Below, piece by piece: positions 465-19,454 of a stretch of 64,000 nt of DNA (positions within the stretch are counted from its first letter, which is position 1; the number at the start of each line of letters is the position of its first letter). The notes beneath the pieces were generated by a model. It was not told the DNA's origin. It saw only the letters and a list, made by a program, of their open reading frames with translations, and searched no databases. Made by a program: the position numbers and the translations under genes. Source of the stretch: Candidatus Competibacteraceae bacterium (GTDB taxonomy: Bacteria > Pseudomonadota > Gammaproteobacteria > Competibacterales > Competibacteraceae); NCBI GenBank assembly GCA_027492875.1, contig JAPUDV010000067.1, positions 3,180 to 67,179 of the forward strand. The letters are read 5' to 3'.

Positions 465-1340
465 TCAACACAATCTTTCCACCTCGTAAACCCCGCCGAC
501 CACCACGTACTCGTCTTCGCTCTTGAGCATCCCCGGCAACATCCGGTTGTAGAAGAACACCTTGGCCAGCGGGACTTGCGCCCGCAGCAGGTGGTCGCCG
601 AATTCCTCGGCGCGCTCGCGGCGGACGCTGAAGGAGCTGAGGTTGTTGAGCAGCACGATCCAGCGCCGGCGTTCGGGTTTGGCCAGCACTTGGTCGTCGC
701 TGAAGCGGTTGAAGCCGCGATACAGGCTCAGATGCGCCGCCGCCGGCTGCTGGCGCCGCTGTTCGTACTGGCCATAGGCGTACAGCAGGTCCAGTTGCGC
801 CTCCAGCGCGTTGGTGTTGTACAGCCCCCGGCTGCACGCCTCCAGAAAGTGCATGTAGGTCTCATCCCCAACGCGATCGTCCAGCAGCCCGCCGTGGTAG
901 CGCGCCAGCAGGCCGAAGCGCGACTCCACCCAGGCTTTCAGCACCGCGCCTTCCTGGCTGTTGGGATCGAAGGCCCAGCCGCGCACCATGCGCAGGTAAT
1001 CCGCCCGCCCGCGCAGCTTGCGCCGGCCTGGCATCAAACCCACGTCCTCCAGCGCCTCCAGCCGAAAATACACCGTCATGTAGTCCATGAAGCGCTGTGC
1101 CCGTTCACCCGGCTCAGCCAAAAGCTCCAACGACCGAAACAGCCGGTAATGCAGCTCCGCCACCCCGTCGAGCAACAACGGGGCCGGATGGCGCTGAAAA
1201 GTCAGGCCGCCCAGGATCACCGCCGGCAGGTTGCAGCGGTTGATCGGCAGATAGGCGCCCTTGGGCAAGCGCGGCCCGACGGCCTCGACCGGCGCCGCAA
1301 CCGCATTGTTATCAACCCGACAAACCGTCGCGTTTGTCAT
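465..1340 (-). CDS. draT: NAD(+)--dinitrogen-reductase ADP-D-ribosyltransferase DraT
   Basis: DraT transfers ADP-ribose from NAD+ to one arginine of the nitrogenase Fe protein and so switches nitrogenase off when ammonium appears or energy falls. The 291-residue product carries the family hallmark NRCNLPAVILGGLTFQRHP near residue 35 and a LHYRLFRSLE stretch soon after, and its length suits the family (about 270-290 aa). I chose the ATG at 1340 (MTNATVCRV) instead of the longer frame to 1460, because the extra N-terminus is unlike the family and would cross the nifH control region. It diverges from nifH, whose product is its target; that product has the acceptor arginine (Arg102, in CAGRGVI). 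No draG is visible next to it. Confidence 0.92.
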   Translation of the reverse strand: MTNATVCRVDNNAVAAPVEAVGPRLPKGAYLPINRCNLPAVILGGLTFQRHPAPLLLDGVAELHYRLFRSLELLAEPGERAQRFMDYMTVYFRLEALEDVGLMPGRRKLRGRADYLRMVRGWAFDPNSQEGAVLKAWVESRFGLLARYHGGLLDDRVGDETYMHFLEACSRGLYNTNALEAQLDLLYAYGQYEQRRQQPAAAHLSLYRGFNRFSDDQVLAKPERRRWIVLLNNLSSFSVRRERAEEFGDHLLRAQVPLAKVFFYNRMLPGMLKSEDEYVVVGGVYEVERLC

Positions 1341-1356
1341 GTCTGGTTTCGATCCT

Positions 1357-2376
<1,020 letters not shown>

Positions 2377-2396
2377 GTTGTACTGGAGTACCTATC

Positions 2397-3869
2397 ATGA
2401 CCATGAACCGCCAAGAAACCGAACAGCTGATTCAGGAAGTGCTGGAAGTCTACCCGGAAGCCACCGGCAAGCAACGCGCCAAGCATTTGATGGCCAACGA
2501 CCCCTCGCTGGAAAAATCCAACAAGTGCATCGTCGCCAACAAGAAGGCGTTGCCCGGCGTGATGACCGCGCGCGGCTGCGCCTACGCCGGAGCCAAAGGC
2601 GTGGTGTGGGGGCCGATCAAGGATGTGGCCAATATCTCGCACGGCCCGGTGGGCTGTGGCCAGTTCTCCCGTGCGGGCCGTCGTAACTACGTCACCGGCC
2701 ATAGCGGCGTTAACGTCTTCGCCGACATGAACTTCACCTCGGATTTCCAGGAAAAGGACGTCGTGTTCGGCGGCGACAAGAAACTGGCCAAACTGATTGC
2801 CGAAATCGACACCCTGTTTCCTCTGGTCAAGGGCGTGACCATTCAGTCGGAATGCCCCATCGGTTTGATCGGCGACGATATCGAAGCGGTGGCCAAAAAA
2901 TCCGCCAAGGAGATCGGCAAGGTGGTGGTGCCGGTGCGCTGCGAAGGTTTCCGGGGTGTTTCACAATCCCTGGGTCACCATGTCGCCAACGACTCGTTGC
3001 GCGACTGGGTATTGCACGGCCGCGATGAAGACGACAGCTTCGAATCCACGCCTTACGACGTGGCGATTACCGGCGATTACAACATCGGCGGGGACGCCTG
3101 GAGTTCGCGGGTTCTGCTGGAGGAAATCGGCCTGCGGGTCATCGCGCAATGGTCCGGCGATGGCTCGATCCCGGAAATGCAAACCACCCGTCACGCCAAG
3201 CTGAATCTGCTGCATTGCTACCGCTCGATGAATTACATCAGCCGGCACCTGGAAGAGAAGTACGGCATTCCCTACATGGAATACAACTTCTTCGGGCCGA
3301 CCAAAATCGCCGAAAGCCTGCGCAAGATTGCGGCGTTCTTCGACGACACCATCAAGGAAAACGCCGAGCGCGTCATCGCCAGACATCAATCGGTCATGGA
3401 CGCCATCATCGCCAAGTATCGCCCCCGGCTGGAAGGCAAGCGGGTGATGTTGTTTGTTGGTGGTCTGCGGCCCCGCCACGTCATCGGCGCCTATGAAGAT
3501 TTGGGGATGGAAATCATCGGCGCGGGCTACGAGTTCGCCCACAACGACGATTACGACCGCACCTTCAAGGAAGTGCAGGACGGCGCGCTGATCTACGACG
3601 ACGCCACCAGTTTCGAGCTGGAAGCCTTCGTGGAGCGGTTAAAGCCCGATCTGATCGGCTCCGGCATCAAGGAAAAGTACGTGTTCCACAAGATGGGCAT
3701 TCCGTTCCGGCAGATGCATTCCTGGGACTACTCCGGCCCCTATCACGGCTACGACGGTTTCGCCATCTTCGCCCGCGATATGGACATGACGATCAACAAT
3801 CCCTGCTGGAAGAATTTGCAGGCTCCCTGGAAGCGCGCCGGCACCGAAGCGTTGAAGTCGGCCGCCTGA
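2397..3869 (+). CDS. nifD: Nitrogenase MoFe protein alpha chain NifD
   Basis: NifD is the subunit that holds the FeMo cofactor where N2 is reduced, and it shares the P-cluster with NifK. In the 490-residue product the P-cluster ligands are Cys61 (ARGCAYAG), Cys87 (GPVGCGQF) and Cys153 ([12 protein letters not shown]). The cofactor ligands are Cys274 ([11 protein letters not shown]) and the histidine in [14 protein letters not shown]. All match the standard Mo enzyme, not the V or Fe-only types. An upstream ACTGGAG lies at a workable distance from the first ATG; a second ATG two codons later is also possible. It is followed by an 87-bp gap with a hairpin before nifK. Confidence 0.99.
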
Positions 3870-3897
3870 AACCCGTCGCTTGGGTGAGGTCATAGGC

Positions 3898-3930
3898 CAT
3901 AACCCAACATTCTCACCGTGTTGGGTTATG
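3898..3930 (+). repeat. Perfect 12-bp stem hairpin between nifD and nifK
   Basis: CATAACCCAACA (3898-3909) and TGTTGGGTTATG (3919-3930) are exact reverse complements with a 9-base loop. The right arm ends 26 bases before the nifK ATG and is followed by GCGCTTCGCGC, itself a short palindrome. The core looks like the AACCCAAC/GTTGGGTT palindromic repeats scattered between genes in many gammaproteobacteria (recalled, not searched). There is no T-run, so a simple terminator is unlikely; mRNA processing or stability is a possible role. Confidence 0.75.
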
Positions 3931-3956
3931 CGCTTCGCGCTAATGAGGATTTAGTC

Positions 3957-5522
3957 ATGCAAGACGTTGAAACGATCAAACCGGGGTATCCGCTGTTCAA
4001 TACCGAGGAATACCAAGAGTCTTTCGTCGGCAAACGGGTGTTTGAGGAAGCGCCTCCACTCGAAAAACTGGAAGAAGTATTCCAGTGGACGACGACCGAA
4101 GCTTACAAGGAACTGAATTTTCAGCGCGAGGCGCTGACCATCAACCCGGCCAAAGCCTGTCAGCCGTTGGGTGCGGTATTGTGCGCGCTGGGCTTTTACA
4201 AGACCCTGCCTTATGTCCACGGCTCGCAGGGCTGCGTCGCCTATTTTCGCACCTACTTCAATCGCCATTTCCGCGAACCAATTGCCGCCGTCTCCGACTC
4301 GATGACGGAAGACGCGGCGGTATTCGGCGGGCAAAAAAACATGTTCGAGGGCTTGGAAAATTCCAAGGCCATGTATCAGCCGGAAATGATCGCGGTGTCC
4401 ACCACCTGCATGGCCGAGGTCATCGGCGACGATCTCAACGCCTTCATCGCCAATGCCAAGAAGGACGGGCGGGTGCCGATGGATTTCCCAACCCCGTTCG
4501 CCCATACCCCCAGCTTTGTCGGCAGCCATACCACCGGCTGGGACAACATGCTGGAAGGCATCCTGCGCTACTTCACCCTGAATTCGATGGAGGGCAAGGC
4601 GGTCGGCAGCAACGGCAAGATCAACATCGTGGCCGGTTTCGAGACCTACCTGGGCAACTACCGGGTCATCAAGCGGATGTTGAAGGAAATGGATGTCGAT
4701 TACACCTTCCTGTCCGATCCCGAGGAAGTTCTCGACACCCCGACCGACGGTGAATTCCGCATGTACGCGGGCGGCACCACGCAGGACGAGATCAAGGACG
4801 CGCCCAACGCGATCGATACGCTGTTGCTGCAACCGTGGCAGTTGCCCAAGACCAAGAAGTACGTGGAAGACACCTGGCATCACCCGGTCAGCGCGATTCG
4901 CATCCCCATGGGACTGAGTTGGACCGACGATTTCCTGATGAAGGTGTCCGAACTGACCGGAAAGCCGATCCCGGAGTCACTGGCCCTGGAGCGCGGTCGG
5001 CTGCTGGACATGATGACCGACTCCCATACCTGGTTGCACGGCAAGCGTTTCTCGGTGTTCGGCGACCCTGACTTCGTGAGCGGCATGTGCCAGTTCCTGT
5101 TGGAACTGGGTGCTGAACCATTGCATGTGCTCTGTCACAACGCGAACAAACGCTGGACCAAGGACATCACAAAACTGCTCGAGAATTCGCCCTACGGTCA
5201 GGACGCCGAAGTGTATACCGGCAAGGATCTCTGGCATCTGCGTTCGCTGGTGTTCAGCAACAAGCCCGACTTCCTGATTGGCAACTCCTACGGCAAGTTC
5301 ATTCAGCGCGATACCCTGCACAAGGGCAAGGAACATGAAGTCCCGTTGATCCGGATTGGTTTCCCACTGTTCGACCGTCACCACCTGCACCGTGACACCA
5401 CTCTGGGCTATGAAGGCGCGATGTACATGCTCAAGGCCCTGGTGAACGCGGTGATGGAAAAACTGGACCAGGACACCATGACGTTGGGCGAAACCGACTA
5501 CGCCTTCGATTTGATTCGTTGA
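3957..5522 (+). CDS. nifK: Nitrogenase MoFe protein beta chain NifK
   Basis: NifK pairs with NifD to form the alpha2-beta2 MoFe protein and supplies half of the P-cluster. The ligands are visible at Cys68 (AKACQPLGA), Cys93 (GSQGCVAYF) and Cys151 (STTCMAEVIGDD). I place the start at the ATG of MQDVETIKPGYPLF, 521 aa, which has GAGG ten bases upstream; an in-frame GTG at 3918 would add 13 residues that come out of the intergenic hairpin and are not expected in NifK. The gene is followed by another hairpin before nifT. The sequence appears full length with no key residue missing. Confidence 0.99.
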   Translation: MQDVETIKPGYPLFNTEEYQESFVGKRVFEEAPPLEKLEEVFQWTTTEAYKELNFQREALTINPAKACQPLGAVLCALGFYKTLPYVHGSQGCVAYFRTYFNRHFREPIAAVSDSMTEDAAVFGGQKNMFEGLENSKAMYQPEMIAVSTTCMAEVIGDDLNAFIANAKKDGRVPMDFPTPFAHTPSFVGSHTTGWDNMLEGILRYFTLNSMEGKAVGSNGKINIVAGFETYLGNYRVIKRMLKEMDVDYTFLSDPEEVLDTPTDGEFRMYAGGTTQDEIKDAPNAIDTLLLQPWQLPKTKKYVEDTWHHPVSAIRIPMGLSWTDDFLMKVSELTGKPIPESLALERGRLLDMMTDSHTWLHGKRFSVFGDPDFVSGMCQFLLELGAEPLHVLCHNANKRWTKDITKLLENSPYGQDAEVYTGKDLWHLRSLVFSNKPDFLIGNSYGKFIQRDTLHKGKEHEVPLIRIGFPLFDRHHLHRDTTLGYEGAMYMLKALVNAVMEKLDQDTMTLGETDYAFDLIR

Positions 5523-5526
5523 CGAC

Positions 5527-5565
5527 CGCGGGTAGAGACGGATTGCAAACCCGCCTCTACCCGCG
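5527..5565 (+). repeat. Perfect 11-bp stem hairpin between nifK and nifT
   Basis: CGCGGGTAGAG (5527-5537) pairs exactly with CTCTACCCGCG (5555-5565) across a 17-base loop. It fills most of the 58-bp gap between the nifK stop and the nifT start and is not followed by a T-run. It may limit read-through or shield the highly expressed nifHDK message from decay; this is inference. Confidence 0.7.
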
Positions 5566-5580
5566 CTGGAGAACTCAGCC

Positions 5581-5793
5581 ATGCCCAATGTCATGTTGCG
5601 GAACAATGCCGCTGGCGAACTGGTGTTCTACATCACCAAGAAGGATCACGAGGAAACCGTGGTGGCGCTGGAACATGCGGGACCCGGCGCCTGGGGCGGT
5701 GAGATACAGTTGTCCGATGGTTCGCGGTTCTATCTGGAGCCTTTGGAGCAAACACCCAAGTTGCCGTTGACCGTCAGGGTGAAACGGCTATGA
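5581..5793 (+). CDS. nifT: NifT/FixU family protein
   Basis: This 70-residue protein starts MPNVMLRNNAAGELVFYI and contains the family core KKDHEETVV followed by GGEIQLSDGSRFYLE. NifT (FixU) is a small protein found almost always just after nifK; a role in nitrogenase maturation has been proposed but the gene is usually dispensable, and its biochemical activity is unknown. GGAG precedes the start at a good distance. The stop overlaps the start of the next gene in an ATGA arrangement at 5790-5793, so the two are probably translationally coupled. Confidence 0.93.
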   Translation: MPNVMLRNNAAGELVFYITKKDHEETVVALEHAGPGAWGGEIQLSDGSRFYLEPLEQTPKLPLTVRVKRL

Positions 5794-6503
5794 ACGTCGC
5801 TAATTCGCTACCACGTTGCGTCGCGCTGCGCATCGCTCTGGCGGCACGGCAACTCCCCGACACCAGTTCGGGCCAATTGCTGCGCATCCTGCTGACGGCG
5901 TTGGACGAGCCGCTGACCGAAGCCAAGCTGAACGGCCTGACGGTCCAGGATCTCAAAACCGCTGCCGATGGCGCGTTGGGCGACATTGATGGATCTACCT
6001 TGCGCCAGGCACTTAAGTGCTTGAAGGGAGAGGGCGAGAACGAGGCCAGCGCCGAGACTCCTCAACCCCAACCGTACCGTGAGGACGATTTACCGGGTTC
6101 CATCCGCATCGCCTGCGCCTCCAACAACGGCGAGCTACTCGATGGTCACTTCGGCTCCTGCGCCCGATTCCTGATCTATCAGGTCTCGGCAGCGGAAGCG
6201 CGGCTGATCGCGGTGCGGCCGGCGCCCAACATCGCCCGACTCAGCGTGGATCACAGCGCGGAGCGAGTGGCGCTGATCGGCGATTGCGACTTGCTGTGCG
6301 TGCTGTCCATCGGTGGACCCGCCGCCGCCCGGGTGGTGAATAGCGGCATCCATCCGATCAAGCGCGGATCGATCGGCGACATCCAGCCGCTGCTGATCGA
6401 ATTGCAACAGGTACTGGCCGGCGACCCGCCGCCCTGGCTGGCCAAACTTCGCGCGCGCGCCGGCGACAAACAACGGCCGGTACTGGCGGGAGCCGCGCCA
6501 TGA
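5790..6503 (+). CDS. nifY: NifY-like nitrogenase cofactor-binding protein
   Basis: The 237-residue product has two parts. Residues 1 to about 95 form a helical N-terminal domain like that of NifY/NafY, and residues about 105-225 form a NifX-type iron-molybdenum cofactor-binding domain (IRIACASNNGELLDGHFGSCARFLIYQVS, read in two overlapping pieces here). NifY/NafY proteins hold apo-dinitrogenase or FeMo-co before insertion. The gene overlaps nifT and the next gene by 4 bp each, so nifT-nifY-6500 are translated as a block. The N-terminal domain distinguishes it from the NifX encoded at 10213. The exact choice between NifY and NafY nomenclature is uncertain. Confidence 0.85.
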   Translation: MNVANSLPRCVALRIALAARQLPDTSSGQLLRILLTALDEPLTEAKLNGLTVQDLKTAADGALGDIDGSTLRQALKCLKGEGENEASAETPQPQPYREDDLPGSIRIACASNNGELLDGHFGSCARFLIYQVSAAEARLIAVRPAPNIARLSVDHSAERVALIGDCDLLCVLSIGGPAAARVVNSGIHPIKRGSIGDIQPLLIELQQVLAGDPPPWLAKLRARAGDKQRPVLAGAAP

Positions 6504-10256: not shown

Positions 10257-10692
10257 GGAAGCGGCGATGGTGGAAACCGTGAAACTAGCCTTTGCCAGCA
10301 GCGATCGCAAACGGGTGGACCAGCACTTCGGCTCCGCCTGCGCCCTGGCCATCTACGCGGTGAGCGAACAACAAGCGACCTTGCTGGAGTTCGCTGAGTT
10401 CGGCGACCTGGCGCAGGACGGCCACGAAGACAAACTGGCCACCAAGCTGGCGCTGGTGCGGGACTGCGCGGCGGTGTACTGCCAGGCGATCGGCGGTTCC
10501 GCCATCCGGCAGTTGCTGGCCGTCGGGGTGCAGCCGATCCGGGTCGAGGAAGGCGTGTCGGTCGAGCGACTGCTGGACGAGGCACAAGCCGCGCTGTGCG
10601 CCGGAACGACGCCCTGGCTGGCCGGCGCGCGCCGACGGCGGAGCGATCCTCGGCGCTTCGAGGCGATGGAGGCGGAAGGCTGGCAGGAATAA
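10213..10692 (+). CDS. nifX: FeMo-cofactor carrier NifX
   Basis: NifX binds NifB-co and the VK-cluster and passes cofactor precursors to NifEN. The 159-residue product carries the NifX-type domain: [19 protein letters not shown] at about residues 24-42, then [20 protein letters not shown], the cofactor-binding core. It lacks the extra N-terminal domain of the NifY-like protein at 5790. The ATG at 10213 lies inside the 3' end of nifN; an ATG at 10267 (MVETVKLAF) would remove the overlap but also the first 18 residues ([18 protein letters not shown]), which resemble other NifX starts. A large inverted repeat follows the gene. Confidence 0.92.
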
Positions 10693-10732
10693 ACGCTTCC
10701 CATAATCATTCAGTCCCCTCTCCCCACCAAGG

Positions 10733-10798
10733 GGGAGAGGGTTAGGGTGAGGGGGTCAGCCTTTGAAACCATGACCCTCACCCTCAACCCCTCTCCCG
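10733..10798 (+). repeat. Long inverted repeat after nifX (possible terminator or dispersed repeat)
   Basis: Two arms, GGGAGAGG-GTTAGGGTGAGG... (10733-10758) and its near-complement TGACCCTCACCC-TCAACC... (10772-10798), can form a stem of about 25 bp around a 13-base loop. The AGGGTGAGGG / CCCTCACCCT core is a common dispersed intergenic repeat in GC-rich proteobacteria (recalled). No T-run follows, so transcription termination is possible but not shown. It separates the nifHDK...X run from fdxB. Confidence 0.7.
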
Positions 10799-10817
10799 CA
10801 GACGGGCGAGAGGAATA

Positions 10818-10842
10818 AACGGTTACCGGTTCCCTAACCGTT
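10818..10842 (+). repeat. Short perfect inverted repeat upstream of fdxB
   Basis: AACGGTTA (10818-10825) and TAACCGTT (10835-10842) are exact complements with a 9-base loop. The motif lies about 50 bp upstream of fdxB and just after the larger repeat. It could be an operator or a hairpin; no recognised promoter sits beside it. Confidence 0.4.
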
Positions 10843-10894
10843 CCCGGTTCGGTCGTGCGTCCGCGCCGGGACATCATTAAAGAGAGGTCATTAC

Positions 10895-11209
10895 ATGGGC
10901 GCAGAACCCAATATCACCGGTGTCACTCGGGGAGGAACCGCCTGGGTTCCTCAATTCGCGGTCGCGCTGGACGAAGGCAAGTGCATCGGTTGTGGCCGCT
11001 GCTTCAAGGTGTGCCCGCGCGATGTGCTGACCATCGTGCAGCGGGCGGTGGACGATGTGGATTTTGACGACGACGACGACGATGACGATGATAGCGACAA
11101 TTCGTTCATGACGCTCACCAACCCCATGGATTGCATCGGTTGCGAGGCGTGTTCGCGGGTTTGCCCCAAAGCCTGCTTTAGCCATGCGGCGCTGCCGCTG
11201 GCGGCCTGA
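10895..11209 (+). CDS. fdxB: Nif-specific ferredoxin III FdxB (two [4Fe-4S] motifs, with an Asp run)
   Basis: FdxB is a small soluble ferredoxin of nif clusters and a probable electron carrier for nitrogenase or cofactor synthesis. The 104-residue protein has two cluster motifs, CIGCGRCFKVCP at about residues 30-41 and CIGCEACSRVCP near 79-90. Between them is an unusual stretch with nine consecutive aspartates encoded by a GAC/GAT run at 11066-11092, flanked by VDDVDF and SDN. The AGAGAGGTC ahead of the ATG is a strong ribosome binding site. It follows the long inverted repeat after nifX, so it may be transcribed separately or by read-through. Confidence 0.93.
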   Translation: MGAEPNITGVTRGGTAWVPQFAVALDEGKCIGCGRCFKVCPRDVLTIVQRAVDDVDFDDDDDDDDDSDNSFMTLTNPMDCIGCEACSRVCPKACFSHAALPLAA

Positions 11210-11242
11210 GACATCGCCACCTGGGCGTCGTTTCCGTAGACT

Positions 11243-11276
11243 GCCCGTCGTCCGGTAAACCGCCGGACGCACGGGC
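11243..11276 (+). repeat. Strong interrupted hairpin between fdxB and the molbindin gene
   Basis: GCCCGT-CG-TCCGG (11243-11255) pairs with CCGGA-CGC-ACGGGC (11263-11276), with one small internal bulge and a 7-base loop. It lies 34 bp after the fdxB stop. There is no T-run, but the stem is the strongest structure in this gap and could end the fdxB message or mark a processing site. Confidence 0.5.
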
Positions 11277-11331
11277 CGTCCGCCGCAAGCGCGCCGGACG
11301 CCAACCAGCCTACTTCACGCGGAGATCGACG

Positions 11332-11760
11332 ATGCAGATCAGCACCAGAAACCAGTTCAAGGGTCGAGCGACCGTTTTGCGCATCGGCCAGATCAACGCC
11401 GACGTCAGCGTCGATATCGGCGGCGGCGACCAAATCAACGCCCTGATCACCACCAAGAGCCTGGAAAATCTGGGCATCCGCGACGGGGTCGAGGTCTTTG
11501 CCCTGGTCAAGGCGTCGTCGGTCATGGTGATGAGCGGGTCCACGCCGCTAAAGCTCAGCGCCCGCAATCAGTTGCGGGGCCGCGTGATCCGCTGCAAGCG
11601 GGGCGCGGTCAACGGTGAGGTGGCGATCCAGTTGCCGGGCGGCGGAACCGTCACCGCCATCATCACCAACGAGAGCATCGACGGGCTGGAACTCAAGGAA
11701 GGCGTCGAGGCGATTGCCGTGTTCAAGTCCACCAGCGTCATTCTGGGCGTGGGGTTGTAA
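11332..11760 (+). CDS. Di-TOBE molybdate-binding protein (molbindin, ModG/MopII type)
   Basis: The 142-residue protein is two tandem TOBE (Mop) domains and nothing else. Domain one begins STRNQFKGRATVLRIGQINADV (read as a typical NxFxGxV Mop start) and ends LVKASSVMV; domain two begins SARNQLRGRVIRCKRGAVNGEV and ends VFKSTSVILGV. Such molbindins bind several molybdate ions and act as a cytoplasmic molybdenum store or buffer. It sits directly before modA, which supports molybdate specificity, and after the nif run, which needs molybdenum. GGAG is present ahead of the ATG. Confidence 0.9.
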   Translation: MQISTRNQFKGRATVLRIGQINADVSVDIGGGDQINALITTKSLENLGIRDGVEVFALVKASSVMVMSGSTPLKLSARNQLRGRVIRCKRGAVNGEVAIQLPGGGTVTAIITNESIDGLELKEGVEAIAVFKSTSVILGVGL

Positions 11761-11791
11761 TCGGGCCGCTGCTTTGTCAGGAGAGCGCGTT

Positions 11792-12568
11792 ATGTTCCGC
11801 AAGGCGTTGGATCGCTGGCTCCCGGTCGCTCTGATTGGACTGATCCTTGGGGCAACCCTTCCGGTTTGGGCGGCGAAACCGGTCACGGTCCTCGCCGCCG
11901 CCAGCGCCACCCAGGTCATCCGGGACATCGCGGCGCTGTACGAAAAGGAAAAGGGCGTGAAGGTCGTCGCCTCCTTTGCCGCCTCGTCGGCCTTGGCCAA
12001 GCAAATCGAACAGGGGGCGCCGGCGGACGTGTACGTTTCCGCCGACTTGAAATGGATGGATTACCTGGAGGGCAATGACAAGGTTGTCAAGGACAGTCGC
12101 CGCAATCTGTTCGGCAACCGGCTGGTGCTGATCGCGCCCAAGGGCCAGGCATTTCCGGTGAAGCTGGAAAAGGGCTTCGATTTGCCCGGCGCCTTTCGGG
12201 GCCGCTGGTGTTCCTGCGATCCCGCAGTGCCGATCGGCGCATACGCCAAGCAGGCGCTGACGGTGCTGGGCTGGTGGGTGGCGCTGGAACCGCGTTTGGC
12301 GGCGGCGCCGGATGTGCGCTCGGCCCTGGCCTTCGTGGAACGCGGCGAGTGCGCGGTCGGCATCGTCTTTGCGACCGACGCCAAGGTCTCCAGCGCGGTG
12401 GACACCCTCGGCGTCTTTCCCGCCGATTCTCATCGGCCGGTGGTCTACCCGGCGGCGCTGGTGCCGGGAGCGAGTCCGGCGGCGCGGGAGTTTCTGGATT
12501 TCCTGTCGTCGCCGGCGGCGGCGGATATAGCGATCCGCCATGGGTTTACTCCGATCCAGTCGCCCTGA
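11792..12568 (+). CDS. modA: Molybdate ABC transporter substrate-binding protein ModA
   Basis: ModA captures molybdate in the periplasm for uptake. The 258-residue product has a signal peptide (MFRKALDRWLPVALIGLILG, cleavage near VWAAKP), then VTVLAAASATQVIRDIA, the start of the ligand-binding fold, FAASSALAKQIEQGAPADVYVSA, and the hinge segment DPAVPIGAYAKQAL. The ATG at 11792 follows AGGAG; the longer open frame from 11615 is out of the mature reading context and runs over the molbindin gene. A cysteine pair (WCSCDP) occurs just before the hinge segment, unusual for ModA but in frame. modB begins 6 bp downstream. Confidence 0.95.
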   Translation: MFRKALDRWLPVALIGLILGATLPVWAAKPVTVLAAASATQVIRDIAALYEKEKGVKVVASFAASSALAKQIEQGAPADVYVSADLKWMDYLEGNDKVVKDSRRNLFGNRLVLIAPKGQAFPVKLEKGFDLPGAFRGRWCSCDPAVPIGAYAKQALTVLGWWVALEPRLAAAPDVRSALAFVERGECAVGIVFATDAKVSSAVDTLGVFPADSHRPVVYPAALVPGASPAAREFLDFLSSPAAADIAIRHGFTPIQSP

Positions 12569-12574
12569 TCCGCC

Positions 12575-13285
12575 GTGTGGTCCACACTGCAACTCACGCC
12601 CGAAGAACTGAGCGCGCTGTGGCTGTCGCTCAAGATCGGGCTGTGGTGCGTGGCGCTGATCGCCGTGCCCGGCATCGTGACCGGCTGGTTACTGGCGCGA
12701 GTACGCTTCCCCGGCAAGGCGATAGTCGATGGACTGGTCCACCTGCCGTTGGTGTTGCCGCCGGTGGTGCCCGGTTACCTACTACTGCTGCTGTTGGGCC
12801 GGCAGGGACCGCTCGGCCGCTGGCTCTACGAAACCTGGGGCGTTACCCTGACGTTTACCTGGCAGGGCGCGGTCATCGCCGCAGCGCTGATGGCTTTTCC
12901 GCTGATGGTGCGGGCGGTGCGGCTGGCGGTCACCTTGGTGGAGCCGCGCCTGGAAGACGCCGCCCGGACGCTGGGCGCGGGTCCGCTGCGGGTGTGGCTG
13001 ACAGTTACCGTACCGCTGGCGCTGCCTGGCATCCTGACCGGACTGGTGCTGGCTTTCGCCCGCAGCCTGGGCGAATTCGGCGCGACCGTGACCTTTGTCG
13101 GCAACGTGGCCGGCGAGACGCGCACTTTGCCTCTGGCGATTTATACCTATACCCAGATTCCAGGCGCGGATGGATCGGCCCTGCGGCTGGTGATCATTTC
13201 CATCCTGCTGGCGCTGGCGGCGCTGTGGCTGAGCGAACTGGGCGCACGACGGGTGGAACGGTTGCTGGGGAATCGGGGAACATGA
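12575..13285 (+). CDS. modB: Molybdate ABC transporter permease ModB
   Basis: ModB is the membrane channel of the molybdate importer. The 236-residue protein has five to six hydrophobic segments and the permease EAA loop, here EDAARTLGAGPLRVWLTVTVP, that docks the ATPase ModC; FARSLGEFGATVTFVGN is a ModB signature. The start is a GTG 6 bp after the modA stop. Its own stop overlaps an ATG (ATGA at 13282-13285), the usual coupling to a following modC, but that frame stops after eight codons and no ModC is found. Confidence 0.95.
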   Translation: MWSTLQLTPEELSALWLSLKIGLWCVALIAVPGIVTGWLLARVRFPGKAIVDGLVHLPLVLPPVVPGYLLLLLLGRQGPLGRWLYETWGVTLTFTWQGAVIAAALMAFPLMVRAVRLAVTLVEPRLEDAARTLGAGPLRVWLTVTVPLALPGILTGLVLAFARSLGEFGATVTFVGNVAGETRTLPLAIYTYTQIPGADGSALRLVIISILLALAALWLSELGARRVERLLGNRGT

Positions 13286-13308: not shown

Positions 13309-13440
13309 GAAATTTGAAACCCGGCTTTCGTCTCGCGCCGGCGCTCGCCAAATCAAGGGGTCGGATGATGCGCGGACAGGATTCCATCGCCCTCGTTCGC
13401 CGGCCGGTCAAGCGCTGGCCGGTCGACGAACCCGCTCCCC

Positions 13441-13592
13441 GCCTCACTCGTACATCGACGCTTTCAACCGTCGTGAGACCACCGGCGGCGCTTCCACCGC
13501 CGCTTCCCGCTTCGCCGCCTCACTCGTACACCGACGCTTTCAACCGCCGTGAGGCCACCGGCGGCGTTTCCACCGCCGCCTCCCGCTTCGCC
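13441..13592 (+). repeat. 76-bp tandem duplication at the 3' end of the AAA gene
   Basis: Bases 13441-13516 and 13517-13592 are two adjacent copies of the same 76-bp unit with 71 identical positions. The second copy contains the last codons and stop of the minus-strand AAA ATPase gene; the first lies downstream of that stop. The unit length is not a multiple of three, so the duplication does not extend the protein. Confidence 0.9.
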
Positions 13593-15709
13593 GCTACCTC
13601 GACGGCCAACCGGTCGTGGAATTCCCCGGCGCTGGGGGTTTCGTCCCACAACTCGTACTGGCGGACCACGGCGGCCACGTCGCCGGGCGTGAGCCGTTCC
13701 AGCCGCCACACGGCGGCCTTGTAGTCCTCCGCCTCGGCCAGCTGGCCGCCCAACCGGACGAACTCCTGCGCGAACAAACCCCAGCGCTGGGCCGGTTTGA
13801 GCCCGTCGAAGCGGATCTTCCACGGGAAGCGGCGCAAGCTGGCCGCATCCAGCGTCTCCATCCGATTGGTGGTGGCGATGAAGATCCCCTCGAACGCCTC
13901 CATCTGGGTCAGCAGCTCGTTGACCTGGGTCACTTCCCAGGAGCGATGGGCGCCGCGCCGGTCGCGCAGGAAGGAATCGGCCTCGTCCAATACCAACACC
14001 GCGTCGTGCTGGCGGGCCTCGTCGAACATCGCGGCGATCCCCTGTTCCGTCTGGCCGACATACATGCCGAGCAGGTCGGAGGCGCGCTTGACCAACAGCG
14101 GTTTTTCCAACCGGTCGGCGAGATGGCGGGCCAGCTCCGACTTGCCGGTGCCGGCCGGCCCGTGGAAGCAGAACACCCCGTGCGGGCGGCGCTGGAGGGC
14201 GGCGATCAGCTTCGGGATATCCTGATCGACGTTGAGAAAACGCAGATCGTAGCCGGTCGGAACGCGGTTGCGGACCGGCGCGCGTTGCTGTCGGAGCAGC
14301 GTGGCCGAACCGTCCAGCGCTTGCCGCACCAGCGCCCGGTTCGTCTCCAGGTCGCCATTGCCGGCGTGGCGAGCCAGCTTGGCGGCCCGTTCCAGTTGCG
14401 CCGGGGTCAACTGTTCGTGGGCGGCGATCCGCGCCAGCCAGTCGTCCTCCCCCGCCCAATCACCGAGATGGTGGCGGGCGATCTCGATCCGCACCGACGG
14501 CGGCGGGGTCGAGAAGCGGATCGAGTAATCGAAGCGCCGCAGATAGGCCCGGTTCATCGAATCGGCGTCATTGGTGAGCCACAGCGCCGGCGCCGGGTTG
14601 TTTTCCAGGGTGCGGTTGATCCAGGCCTTGCCGCCGGCGGCCCGGCCCCTGCCACCGAACAACTCGGCGAAGGGATTGTGCTCGAACACGTCCTCGACCT
14701 CGTCGAACAGCAGCAGGGCGTTATCGCGCCGGGCCAGCAGCCGCTGACCCAGATTGAAGGCGCGCAACCGCCGCTCGCCCCGGATGGGGTCGCCGTCCTC
14801 GTCGGCGTAATCAACCTCGTACAGTTCCGCGCCCACCGCCTCGGCCAGCACGGCGGCATATTCGGTCTTGCCCACACCGGGCGGGCCGTACAGCAGCAGG
14901 TTGGTGCCGACGATTTTGTTTTGCAATGCGGCGTGCAACAGACCGGACGCCGCCGCCGTGTCCCGACTCAGGTGAGGAAAATTGGCCACGGTCAGCGTGC
15001 GCCGGGGCGAACGCTTGAGGAAGCAGGCCATCAAGCCCTCGGGGTCGGCGTGCGGGGCGAGCAGGAGATTCGCCAGATTCTTGCGCACATCGAGCTTGTC
15101 TTCCAGATCGACGGGGCGCGCGGTCAGCTCGACCAGCCCGGTGGCGAGCAGGGCGGCGGTGGGCTGCAAGGCCGCGCGGATGTCGTCCGGCGAGAAGCCG
15201 GTCAGGCGCGCCAGCAGCTTACAGAGCAAGGGGGTGCTGGCGCCCTGCGACTGCTGGGCGATGGCTTGATAAAAGACGCGATCCCCGTGCAGCAGCACGG
15301 CGAAGGCGAGCACGGCCTGCTCGGCTTCGCCCAGGCCCACCAACCGGGCGAGCAGATCCAGGTTGCGCACCAGCGGCAGATCCGGACTCAGATCGATCCG
15401 CGCCAGTTCCGCGCGGCGCTGCTGGAGTCGTTGGAGCCGTCGCCCCGGCGACCGGAAGCGCCCATCCTCGTCCTCGTCCTCGTCCTCGTCGCCCTCGTCC
15501 AAACCGGTCAGAGCCAGGAACTCCTCGTTGTCCCAACAGGAGGCGCGATGCAAAAAACGGCTCTTGCGGCGGCTGCCTCCCCAGTCTAGCAGCAGGGCCA
15601 GGTCAATCAGCCAGCGGCCCAGCACGGCCCGATAGGGGGTGGTCTCGTCGTCGTCCAGCGCGGTGAGCGTGGCGATGGGGCTGACGTGCAGATAACGGGG
15701 TAGGATCAT
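13520..15709 (-). CDS. Tandem-AAA ATPase of unknown role
   Basis: The 729-residue protein contains two AAA+ modules. The first has Walker A GPPGVGKTE near residue 285 and Walker B LLLFDEVEDVF; the second has Walker A GPAGTGKSE near 530 and Walker B VLVLDEADSF, followed by the sensor-1 stretch IFIATTNRMETLD. The N-terminal 240 residues are helical and unrecognised, and include an acidic run of alternating Glu and Asp near residue 75. Both modules look competent for ATP. It diverges from a small acidic protein and a WYL regulator across a 240-bp AT-richer gap. Related two-AAA proteins remodel or unfold partner proteins; a role in stress response or phage defence is possible but unproven. Confidence 0.85.
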   Translation of the reverse strand: MILPRYLHVSPIATLTALDDDETTPYRAVLGRWLIDLALLLDWGGSRRKSRFLHRASCWDNEEFLALTGLDEGDEDEDEDEDGRFRSPGRRLQRLQQRRAELARIDLSPDLPLVRNLDLLARLVGLGEAEQAVLAFAVLLHGDRVFYQAIAQQSQGASTPLLCKLLARLTGFSPDDIRAALQPTAALLATGLVELTARPVDLEDKLDVRKNLANLLLAPHADPEGLMACFLKRSPRRTLTVANFPHLSRDTAAASGLLHAALQNKIVGTNLLLYGPPGVGKTEYAAVLAEAVGAELYEVDYADEDGDPIRGERRLRAFNLGQRLLARRDNALLLFDEVEDVFEHNPFAELFGGRGRAAGGKAWINRTLENNPAPALWLTNDADSMNRAYLRRFDYSIRFSTPPPSVRIEIARHHLGDWAGEDDWLARIAAHEQLTPAQLERAAKLARHAGNGDLETNRALVRQALDGSATLLRQQRAPVRNRVPTGYDLRFLNVDQDIPKLIAALQRRPHGVFCFHGPAGTGKSELARHLADRLEKPLLVKRASDLLGMYVGQTEQGIAAMFDEARQHDAVLVLDEADSFLRDRRGAHRSWEVTQVNELLTQMEAFEGIFIATTNRMETLDAASLRRFPWKIRFDGLKPAQRWGLFAQEFVRLGGQLAEAEDYKAAVWRLERLTPGDVAAVVRQYELWDETPSAGEFHDRLAVEVAAKREAAVETPPVASRRLKASVYE

Positions 15710-15948
15710 GAGGGGCTCCGATCAGGTTAGGGAACGGAGCAAAGAATATGATGAACACCCGACAGGATGCGTCGGCTTAACCTCGGCCGTGTGCACGACA
15801 GCACGGAGGAATGTCACGCGCTCTCATCCGACACAACCCGTCGCACAAATAACGTATTCTGATAGAAATATGCTGATATTTGGGTGGCTACTCGATACCG
15901 CCCGAGCCACCCCCACTCACCCCACTCACTCACCCGAAGGATATCGCC

Positions 15949-16365
15949 ATGCCCCGCAAATCGACGCTGGACCCCCAAATGAAGGCCCTGCTGGACAACC
16001 TCAATCTCGACGACAGCGATAACGAACTGCTCGCCGAACCCACCGAAGACGCCGCCGATCGCCTGCGCACCCTGCACCAGCGGCTGACCAACGGCCGGGA
16101 AAACGCCTTGCGGCCTGGGATGCTGGCGGCGTGGAAGCCGGGCCTGAAAAACCGCCGGTTTCCGGCTTACGGCCAGCCGGCCATGGTGGTCGAAGTGATC
16201 GATCCGCCCCTGATCGATCACGAAGATGAAGCCGGGTCGCCCTACTATCGGGAGCCGCTGGGTTTGCTGCTGGGCATCCTGCATCAGGATGGCGATTTCC
16301 TCGTCTACCATTTCGACCCCCGCCGGTTTCAGCCTCACGAAGACGCCAGAACCCCGATCCGTTAG
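15949..16365 (+). CDS. Small acidic protein between the AAA ATPase and the WYL regulator
   Basis: The 138-residue product starts MPRKSTLDPQMKALLDNLNL with GAAGGA upstream; the open frame to 15880 adds a proline-rich leader that is probably not translated. It is acidic with no membrane segment or signal. Residues 60-125 hold RPGMLAAWKPGLKNRRFPAYG and VVEVIDPP, then HQDGDFLVYHFDPRRF, which reads as a small beta-rich domain. I do not recognise the family. Position between a divergent ATPase gene and the WYL gene (67 bp downstream) suggests that the three act together, perhaps with this protein as adaptor or substrate. Confidence 0.75.
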   Translation: MPRKSTLDPQMKALLDNLNLDDSDNELLAEPTEDAADRLRTLHQRLTNGRENALRPGMLAAWKPGLKNRRFPAYGQPAMVVEVIDPPLIDHEDEAGSPYYREPLGLLLGILHQDGDFLVYHFDPRRFQPHEDARTPIR

Positions 16366-16431
16366 CCGCCTCATCGGGCGCCGCTGAGCGATGCCCGATC
16401 CCCCACTGCCCCCTCAGCAAGACGACCCGTG

Positions 16432-17532
16432 ATGAAAGAAGACGCCATCACCACCTTCAACCGTCGCTTGGGCATCCTGGCGATGTTCAAGGGTAGCGAG
16501 TCGCTGACCACCCAGATGATCTTCAAGCGCTTGCAGGGCACCGCCGAGGAAATGGACGAACGCTCGGTGCAGCGCGCCCTGGCGCTGCTGAGCGATGCCG
16601 GCTTTCTGGAAGTCGTGAATCCCGGCGCCAAGCCCTTGCAATGGCGCTGGCCCAAGGGCAAGAAATTCATGACCCTGCCCCGCTTGTCCGATCAGGAGGT
16701 ACTGGCGTTCCGGCTGCTGGAGCTGTTTCTAAAACCGCTGCTGCCCCAGGAATCCTACCGGGCGCTGCGGCCCTATTTCGAGGCCGCGCGCGGCGAACTC
16801 GGTCAGATGTCGTTTTGGGCGCCGGTCAAAAAATGGGAGACGAAGGTGCGCGTCATTCCGCCGGCCCAGCCGCTGCTGCCACCGGAACCACCGGTCGCGC
16901 TGGCGTCGGAGGACGCGCGGGAGGACTGGCGCCGCCATCAGAAGCAGGTGCGCGATGCCGTATTGACGGCCTTGTTCGAGAACAAGCAATGCGCCATCGA
17001 CTACCAGCAGCTCTGGCGGGATGAACCGGCGCACTGGACGATTCATCCGCTGGTTTATCTACAACGCGGACCGGCTTTTTACTTGCTTTGCACCATCGAC
17101 GAACATACCGACGTGCGACAGTTGGCCGTGCATCGGATGCGGTCGGTCACGGTGCTGGACCGGAAAGCGCGCACGCCGGCGGGATTCGATCCGGACCGGG
17201 AAGTGGAGCGGTGTCAGGGCATGGGGGGTAGTGGCGAGCCGTTGCGGCTGATGGCCCGGTTCTGGAAACGCGCCGGGCTGCATCTGCTGGAAACCCGGCT
17301 GGCCGCCGATCAGGTGGTACAGGACGAGGGCGACGACCATTTCCGGCTGACCGCCACCGTCAACGACACCGCGCAATTGCGCTGGTGGTTGCTGTCATTC
17401 GGTTCCAAGGTGGAGGTGCTGGAACCGGCGGGTTTGCGGGAGGAAATGGCCAATCAGGCGTATTGGATGAATCGGCTGTATTCGAGGCCAAATCCGCCGC
17501 CGGAGGGTGCGCCCGATACCGATCTGTCATGA
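16432..17532 (+). CDS. WYL-domain transcriptional regulator
   Basis: The 366-residue protein has an N-terminal winged helix (residues 5-75, NRRLGILAMFKGSESLTTQMI and MDERSVQRALALLSDAGFLE), a central WYL domain around residues 180-250 (CAIDYQQLWRDEPAHWTIHP, GPAFYLLCTID, LAVHRMRSVTVLD) and a C-terminal WCX extension ending LLSFGSKVEVLEPAGLREEM. WYL proteins are regulators that sense ligands, often nucleic acids, and are common beside defence and DNA-repair genes. In the signature triad the Trp is Phe (FYL). A GTG at 16429 is an alternative start. It probably controls the adjacent small-protein and AAA genes. Confidence 0.88.
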   Translation: MKEDAITTFNRRLGILAMFKGSESLTTQMIFKRLQGTAEEMDERSVQRALALLSDAGFLEVVNPGAKPLQWRWPKGKKFMTLPRLSDQEVLAFRLLELFLKPLLPQESYRALRPYFEAARGELGQMSFWAPVKKWETKVRVIPPAQPLLPPEPPVALASEDAREDWRRHQKQVRDAVLTALFENKQCAIDYQQLWRDEPAHWTIHPLVYLQRGPAFYLLCTIDEHTDVRQLAVHRMRSVTVLDRKARTPAGFDPDREVERCQGMGGSGEPLRLMARFWKRAGLHLLETRLAADQVVQDEGDDHFRLTATVNDTAQLRWWLLSFGSKVEVLEPAGLREEMANQAYWMNRLYSRPNPPPEGAPDTDLS

Positions 17533-17603
17533 TTCGGTTGTGGCGAATTCAGCCAGTTTTCCATTCAATCGCCAGCGGATCGCGGAAAGCAAGAGGCTCG
17601 TGC

Positions 17604-18761
17604 ATGAACGAAACCGAACTTTTGGCGATTCTCGCCCGTGGCGAGGACAGCCGACATCAGTTCAAGGAAAATATCAGCAACGTGGATTCACTGGCCGCCG
17701 AATTGGTGGCGTTCTCCAACTCCGGCGGCGGCCTGTTGATCGTGGGCGCGACCGATGCCGGCGAAGTGCTGGGGTTGACCACCGCCGACATCTGTCGCTT
17801 GAATCAATTGCTCTCCAATGCAGCATCCCAGTCGGTGCGTCCGCTTATCCATCCGATTTCGCTCAATATCCAGACGGCGCGAGGCTTACTCATGGTGATC
17901 CAGACCCCAGACGGTCTGAATCGGCCCTACACCGATAATCAGGGGCGGATTTGGGTTAAGAGCGGTGCCGACAAGTGGCATGTGACCACCCGTGAGGAAA
18001 TGCAGCGGCTGTTTCAGCAAGCCGGACTGATTTATGCCGACGAAGTCCCGGTTTCGGGGACCACGGTCGCGGATATCGATCATCGAGCACTGGAGGAGTA
18101 CTTTGAAAACCGCTATCGGGAACCGCTGGAGGATACCGATCAGTCCCTGGAGCAGTTGTTACGGAATATGGGACTGGCTCGCAATGGCGTGCTGACTCTG
18201 GCGGGATTGTTGTTGTTCGCCAAAAAGCCGGAGCGGTTTCGCCCGGCCTTCATGCTCAAAGCGGTGGCCCTTCCCGGCCGCGAGTTGCACGAGACCCACT
18301 ATCTGGACAGCGAGGACATTTTCGACCGGCTGGCCGGGCAATACCAGCGCGGTTTGGCGTTCGTTAAGCGCAACCTGCATTACGTGCAAGGCGATCAGGG
18401 CATCAATAGCCTGGGCATTCTGGAAATCCCCGAAATCGTGTTCCAGGAATTGCTGGTCAACGCCCTGATTCACCGCGACTACTTTATCAGCGCCCCAATC
18501 CGGGTGCTGGTGTTCTCCGACCGAGTGGAAATCAGCAACCCCGGCCATCTGCCCAATCATTTGACTGTGGAGCAGATTCGCTATGGTTTGTCGAACATGC
18601 GCAATCCACTGCTGGCTTCGCACGCCACCCATCTTCTGCCCTATCGCGGGCTGGGCAGCGGTATTCCTCGCGCCCTCAAAGCTTGGCCGAGCATCGAACT
18701 GGTGGATGATCGCGCTGGTAACCAGTTCAAGGTGATTATTCCCCGGTCGGGGGTAAATTGA
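17604..18761 (+). CDS. AlbA_2/Schlafen-like DNA-binding and HATPase_c_4 regulator
   Basis: The 385-residue product begins MNETELLAILARGEDSRHQFK; residues 8-130 form an AlbA_2 (Schlafen-like) domain, with the FKENISNVDSLAAELVAFSN and GGGLLIVGATDAGEVLGL signatures. The second half holds a GHKL-type ATP-binding domain of the HATPase_c_4 kind: FQELLVNALIHRDYF, RVEISNPGHLPN and YRGLGSGIPRAL. Proteins of this build are called putative ATP-dependent transcriptional regulators or helicase-like proteins and are frequent in accessory regions. AAGAGG precedes the ATG at 17604. It lies 71 bp after the WYL gene on the same strand. Confidence 0.88.
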   Translation: MNETELLAILARGEDSRHQFKENISNVDSLAAELVAFSNSGGGLLIVGATDAGEVLGLTTADICRLNQLLSNAASQSVRPLIHPISLNIQTARGLLMVIQTPDGLNRPYTDNQGRIWVKSGADKWHVTTREEMQRLFQQAGLIYADEVPVSGTTVADIDHRALEEYFENRYREPLEDTDQSLEQLLRNMGLARNGVLTLAGLLLFAKKPERFRPAFMLKAVALPGRELHETHYLDSEDIFDRLAGQYQRGLAFVKRNLHYVQGDQGINSLGILEIPEIVFQELLVNALIHRDYFISAPIRVLVFSDRVEISNPGHLPNHLTVEQIRYGLSNMRNPLLASHATHLLPYRGLGSGIPRALKAWPSIELVDDRAGNQFKVIIPRSGVN

Positions 18762-19267: not shown

Positions 19268-19454
19268 ATTCCGGGTCCAATCGTCCACTGATTCCGGGCC
19301 CAATCGTCCACCCCGGCGATGCGTCGCCTCCGACTAGGATAACCCGATAGTCTTGCCTCTTTTTGCCCAACAGAAGGAGGCACCGATGTCGAAAGAGAGG
19401 TTATCCGCCGTGAAGATTAAAGACATTTTACGCTTGAAGTTTGACGTGGATTAG
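19268..19454 (+). mobile_element. IS21-family remnant: end repeats and the first 22 codons of istA
   Basis: Two direct repeats, ATTCCGGGTCCAATCGTCCA+C (19268-19288) and the same sequence with one change (19291-19311), match the multiple end repeats of IS21-family elements. About 75 bp further, after GAAGGAGG, an ATG at 19386 opens MSKERLSAVKIKDILRLKFD, the characteristic IstA transposase N-terminus, and stops at 19452-19454. The rest of istA and istB is missing, so the element is a dead fragment. It lies beside a decayed gene and upstream of the gab cluster. Confidence 0.75.

Follow-up and report, generated by a model that had tools for sequence, protein, structure and literature searches.

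Do the adjoining genes at positions 13520 to 18761 of a 64,000-bp stretch of DNA from a Candidatus Competibacteraceae bacterium (contig JAPUDV010000067.1 of assembly GCA_027492875.1; the window) form one system, and what might such a system do? The window lies on contig 67 of a 3.83-Mb genome (G000; G numbers designate genomes and L numbers designate loci). An earlier note on this DNA had described a block of four genes, encoding a tandem-AAA ATPase, a 138-amino-acid (aa) protein, a WYL regulator, and an AlbA_2/HATPase protein, and all four open reading frames (ORFs) proved to be open and intact at the places given there. The AAA gene (positions 13520 to 15709, minus strand) encodes a protein of 729 aa with two stretches matching Pfam AAA (4.4e-38). 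It is divergent from the gene for the 138-aa protein, designated S (positions 15949 to 16365, plus strand, with the ATG at 15949 and the stop codon ending at 16365), and from the WYL gene (positions 16432 to 17532, plus strand; 366 aa; Pfam WYL, 5.8e-10, and WCX, 1.1e-16). The grouping of these three genes, the AlbA_2 gene excepted, is far beyond chance.

Among 39 Competibacteraceae genomes, a full-length close relative of the AAA gene was present in 12 and a close relative of S in 10, all ten within those 12 (10/12 AAA genomes versus 0/27 others; Fisher P = 1e-7). The two AAA genomes without a close S (G037 and G038) are represented by assemblies that are 75 to 80% complete. Searching for S in about 85,000 species genomes yielded at least 80 loci, 78 of them usable; the S and AAA loci include multiple copies per genome. 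Among the S loci listed, an AAA gene was found within 500 bp of S in 37/78 and within 9 kb in 47/78, where a rough background (30 matches across 369 genomes of ~3.1 Mb) predicts about 0.03, and a WYL gene was found within 500 bp in 41/78. The AAA and 138-aa genes, which the earlier note had proposed as partners, are found together across genomes, and not rarely, in the S-bearing clades.

Distances among S proteins were correlated with those among the AAA proteins (rho of 0.93 for 34 pairs and of 0.82 for the 25 pairs inside the largest clade), exceeding 1,000 permutations. The S-bearing AAA proteins formed three separate clades on the AAA tree, their deep placement being unsure from some long branches. 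Gene order differs between lineages, with AAA on the minus strand divergent from S and WYL on the plus strand in Competibacteraceae, WYL (minus) divergent from S and AAA (plus) in purple sulfur bacteria and some betaproteobacteria, and S (plus), WYL (minus), and AAA (plus) in alphaproteobacteria. In many purple sulfur bacteria, the ATG of AAA lies a few bases past the stop codon of S, and the last codons of S contain GAGGAG; since this motif resembles a ribosome-binding site for AAA and the spacing is tight, translation of the two genes is likely to be coupled. WYL adjoins S in the S-bearing Competibacteraceae, the gene being broken in G001 and diverged in G016. At one locus (L057, positions 803 to 6010), a single S gene is flanked by two AAA genes, and the same genome also has a Competibacter-type AAA gene. 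A small gene that reads as VapC/PIN-like adjoins AAA in relatives of Contendobacter (L048, L049, L051, and L053), lying between AAA and S at L048.

The gap between the AAA and S genes holds the operator-like palindrome CCGAC-N7-GTCGG twice, as site 1 (CCGACAGGATGCGTCGG, positions 15759 to 15775) and, with one mismatch, as site 2 (CCGACACAACCCGTCGC, positions 15828 to 15844). In Competibacteraceae, the perfect palindrome was present within 250 bp upstream of 6/7 AAA genes, 6/10 S genes, and 0/126 control genes, a palindrome in a gap shared by AAA and S being counted for both. The AAA gene and the S-WYL pair have parted in three genomes (G024, G028, and G020), and a perfect or one-mismatch palindrome still precedes each part. 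The strict palindrome occurs twice in the genome of the window, the other copy lying inside a GGDEF/EAL gene. Because the number of one-mismatch matches is not unusual within the window alone, the argument from the palindrome rests on its position and conservation.

Of the order wHTH-WYL-C-terminal domain that marks BrxR/CapW-type repressors, a WYL domain followed by WCX was found in the WYL regulator; no Pfam helix-turn-helix domain passed, and the N-terminal region is probably a winged helix. Its best PDB sequence matches are other WYL proteins, some of which we take to be DNA damage sensors. The WYL protein resembles regulators of the BrxR/CapW type in its location beside conflict genes and in the inverted repeats of the promoter region (PMC9122601). 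BrxR binds inverted repeats and represses a defence island (PMC9122601). The BrxR repeat has 11-bp arms and a 5-bp spacer (PMC9122601), whereas the candidate sites reported here have 5-bp arms and a 7-bp spacer, and the WYL protein is linked to an AAA-S pair. By analogy, we infer that the WYL protein binds the palindromes and acts by repression rather than activation. The shared palindrome offers a direct and simple test of joint control. Together, AAA, S, and WYL very probably constitute one co-inherited and jointly controlled unit in the S-bearing clades. The unit is accessory, moves horizontally, and is present in several lineages; AAA was detected in 26/369 genomes of the class scan, with a patchy distribution, and WYL-AAA pairs without S also occur in plasmids and in a phage record.

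The AAA protein was modelled (AlphaFold2; predicted local distance difference test score [pLDDT], 84) with a helical N-terminal region (residues ~19 to 230) followed by two AAA domains, D1 and D2. D1 contains the Walker A motif GPPGVGKT (residues 275 to 282) and the Walker B residues DE (336 and 337), D2 contains GPAGTGKS (517 to 524) and DE (575 and 576), and both sets are conserved. As read from the sequence, D2 has GMYVG at the pore-loop position and D1 has no aromatic residue there, which recalls p97. The best fold matches of the model were Cdc48, p97, Rix7, and Drg1 (E of about 1e-17 to 1e-15), suggesting that the AAA protein is a double-ring unfoldase of the p97/Cdc48/Rix7 kind. With Cdc48/p97, Rix7/NVL, and Drg1/Afg2, the protein shares its pair of AAA domains, their intact Walker motifs and, apparently, the aromatic pore loop of the second ring. 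Unlike that of Cdc48/p97, the N-terminal region is modelled as mostly helical with no double-psi-barrel, the N-domain having been compared only within the whole model. The protein scored far under the NCBIfam CDC48 cut-off (69.2 versus 802.65 bits), and it differs from Cdc48/p97-type ATPases in being bacterial and linked to WYL. Residues 112 to 710 matched the phage ATPase family phrog_10401 (E = 4.5e-94), annotated in the PHROG library just as "ATPase" with no further system or function. In the S-bearing clades, the AAA protein did not turn out to be a known housekeeping remodeller.

For S, no match was found in Pfam, NCBIfam, or PADLOC or by a sequence search of the PDB, and PHROG matches were weak. 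An alignment of 62 sequences revealed the motif WKPGLKNRRxPxYGxP...SGSxYxREPLD...FHxDxRRF; W62, K63, and E102 are among the conserved residues. The AlphaFold2 model (pLDDT, 74) combines a flexible helical N terminus with a five-stranded SH3-like β-barrel. Foldseek returned weak matches to SH3-like barrels, none of them at E ≤ 0.001 in the PDB, and viral matches to proteins of phages Bcep22 and Pylas, the Bcep22 protein reaching an E of 1e-5. The model suggests that S is an SH3-like barrel protein.

What the unit does is approached here through its neighbours. GmrSD genes were present within 9 kb of 8/78 listed S loci versus 0.49 expected (P = 5e-8, for loci that are not fully independent), on the basis of a background density of 43 matches in 94.4 Mb from 18 S-bearing genomes. 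At one locus, an AAA-WYL pair stands beside BREX-2 genes, with Sir2 there too. Other neighbours are recurrent, with unmeasured background: a cassette encoding C8 (a protein of about 400 to 440 aa with no Pfam match), PLD, and an SNF2-like helicase; PDDEXK nucleases; RtcB/PrfH; and ADP-ribosylglycohydrolase. We lean slightly towards a role of the AAA-S-WYL unit in conflicts with phages or plasmids.

The manner in which a WYL-controlled AAA-S remodelling module might serve such conflicts is proposed with less assurance than the role itself, and the following scheme could as easily be wrong as right. The second ring of the ATPase, with its aromatic pore loop, would serve to unfold proteins or to take complexes apart. 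S, produced along with the ATPase, would most likely be an adaptor, docking the target or tuning the motor. The WYL protein would bind both CCGAC-N7-GTCGG sites in the AAA-S gap and repress the two transcripts, and the sensing of a signal of invasion or nucleic acid damage would lead to production of the ATPase and S. These two proteins would then dismantle foreign or jammed nucleoprotein assemblies, an action that may help adjacent effector or repair genes. A broader version of this scheme is put forward tentatively, as a possibility that we do not expect to prevail: the unit may be a module of a new kind, under WYL control and acting in immunity or the damage response, whose Cdc48-like unfoldase and dedicated SH3-like adaptor disassemble foreign or damaged nucleoprotein complexes in the company of interchangeable effectors (GmrSD, PD-(D/E)XK, the PLD-SNF2 cassette, and RtcB-PrfH). 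No system named in the libraries or papers searched pairs a p97/Cdc48-type double-ring unfoldase with a dedicated small partner under the control of a WYL protein. If the unit does serve conflicts with phages or plasmids, bacteria would use protein disassembly besides nucleic acid cutting, alongside interchangeable effectors.

Several points weigh against this conflict module. The S and AAA locus counts are not independent, because several copies may come from one genome, and the genes were called with a simple ORF picker. Outside Competibacteraceae, the AAA neighbourhoods retrieved in the class scan all lacked S, and S itself is found in Thermaceae, Thiotrichaceae, Desulfobacterales, phages, and Halomonas plasmids with no AAA. 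Widespread in Competibacteraceae, too, is a diverged AAA paralogue (~40% identity) that has neither WYL nor S in its vicinity (L059, L060, L061, and L203 to L211). Only in Competibacteraceae is the palindrome clear; purple sulfur bacteria show no more than looser matches. The surroundings of the unit in the window are metabolic (nif, mod, aldehyde dehydrogenase, and aminotransferase genes) and include no defence island. The defence context supposed by the earlier note was supported in part, by the GmrSD enrichment near S and by the BREX-2, nuclease, PLD/SNF2, and RNA repair neighbours. Since many AAA relatives have no S and S is also found alone, S is the partner of AAA just in certain clades; within those clades, the conserved unit of AAA, the 138-aa protein, and WYL fits the ATP-driven remodeller with a small partner that the earlier note had envisaged. 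Where S stands alone in Thermaceae (L100, L110, and L120), it lies beside ordinary genes. At L107, L125, and L140, it lies beside genes that we read as HEPN- or nucleotidyltransferase-like from their own sequences, a reading not confirmed by family searches.

The main rival explanation is that the unit is a damage-response or ribosome/complex-rescue remodeller rather than an anti-phage device, AAA-S clearing machines that have jammed, for instance following damage to RNA or DNA, and WYL sensing that damage. We regard it as rather unlikely. RtcB and/or PrfH genes near AAA in several loci are consistent with such a role, as are the fold relatives Rix7/NVL/Drg1, which function in ribosome assembly, the presumed DNA damage sensors among the best PDB matches of WYL, and the metabolic surroundings in the window; a rescue remodeller is harder to reconcile with the patchy distribution (26/369 genomes), the plasmid and phage copies, the GmrSD enrichment, and the nuclease and PLD/SNF2 neighbours, and the background of RtcB is unmeasured. 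That S is phage derived and that the module serves mobile elements, in takeover or anti-defence, as chromosomal cargo would account for the relatives of S on viral contigs, its fold matches to the Bcep22 and Pylas proteins, and the AAA relatives that occur on viral contigs and in the record of a gut phage. The viral S copies, however, have neither AAA nor WYL nearby, and the paired copies are mostly chromosomal and kept in several genera, some of them at the same dapA neighbourhood, which makes this origin improbable.

Nor does the unit appear to belong, in diverged form, to a named system (IetAS, CBASS with TRIP13, MADS, or BREX), an assignment that we consider very improbable. PADLOC matched the AAA protein to IetA (2e-36), TRIP13 (3.7e-13), and mad8 (2.4e-8), and the BREX-2 genes adjoin one AAA-WYL pair, but the similarity to IetA and TRIP13 is strongest over the second AAA domain, and the NCBIfam IteA score was 112.8 bits, where the cut-off is 510. 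The likeness to IetAS lies in this ATPase similarity; the protein differs in having two AAA domains and in falling far under the family cut-off. PADLOC detected no IetS among the four block proteins, the neighbours of relatives not having been scanned systematically, and no HORMA or cyclase of CBASS with TRIP13 among the same four proteins, genes further off not having been scanned. Membership of the AAA protein in IetA, TRIP13, or MADS was rejected on scores and missing partners. As the earlier note had held, the block matches no named system: the AAA-S-WYL trio has no name in the libraries searched and no description in the literature searched, which covered few subscription papers, and this result is a weak argument for novelty. 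That AAA, S, and WYL are mere chance neighbours is scarcely conceivable, since AAA does stand apart from S-WYL in some genomes but the palindrome is retained on both parts after the split, and the linkage counts, the clades of the AAA tree, and the distance correlation speak against coincidence.

The fourth gene of the block (positions 17604 to 18761, plus strand) encodes a 385-aa protein with Pfam SLFN_AlbA_2 and HATPase_c_4 domains. It follows WYL only in the window, other genomes holding other genes in this slot. We judged this downstream neighbour to lie outside the module, because its relatives elsewhere in the family adjoin neither this AAA nor S; one of them is near a diverged AAA paralogue (G018). 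Its inclusion in the system by the earlier note was consequently abandoned, the gene being a one-off neighbour.

The C8-PLD-SNF2 cassette (L082, L096, L070, L065, L148, L150, L152, L231, and L241) is often beside AAA-WYL, some copies being cut by contig or locus ends. It was rejected as a constant part of the module, being beside some copies only; L241, an 11-kb contig that gave the sole C8 match of the unbiased class scan, has neither AAA nor WYL. The cassette had partial PADLOC matches to ZacB/ZacC, and a literature search returned no paper on Zac. The copy at L044 (positions 10422 to 11841) in G001 appears to be decaying, with a broken WYL gene and a short C8. RtcB and/or PrfH genes were observed near AAA at L055/L216, L084, L087, L109, L116, L129, and L147 (background unmeasured), and ADP-ribosylglycohydrolase-like genes near AAA, S, or WYL at L088, L123, L127, L130, L133, L149, L186, L199, and L231.

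Beyond the block, modB (positions 12575 to 13285) lies beside nif genes in the window and was found in no other of five genomes of the genus searched. An ORF at position 19386 opens with MSKERLSAVKIKDILRLKFDVD and then stops; it has a likeness by eye, not confirmed by a tool, to the start of IS21 IstA. The duplication reported at one border of the block is a 76-bp tandem repeat at the 3' end of the AAA gene (positions 13436 to 13587), its two copies (13436 to 13511 and 13512 to 13587) being 92% identical.

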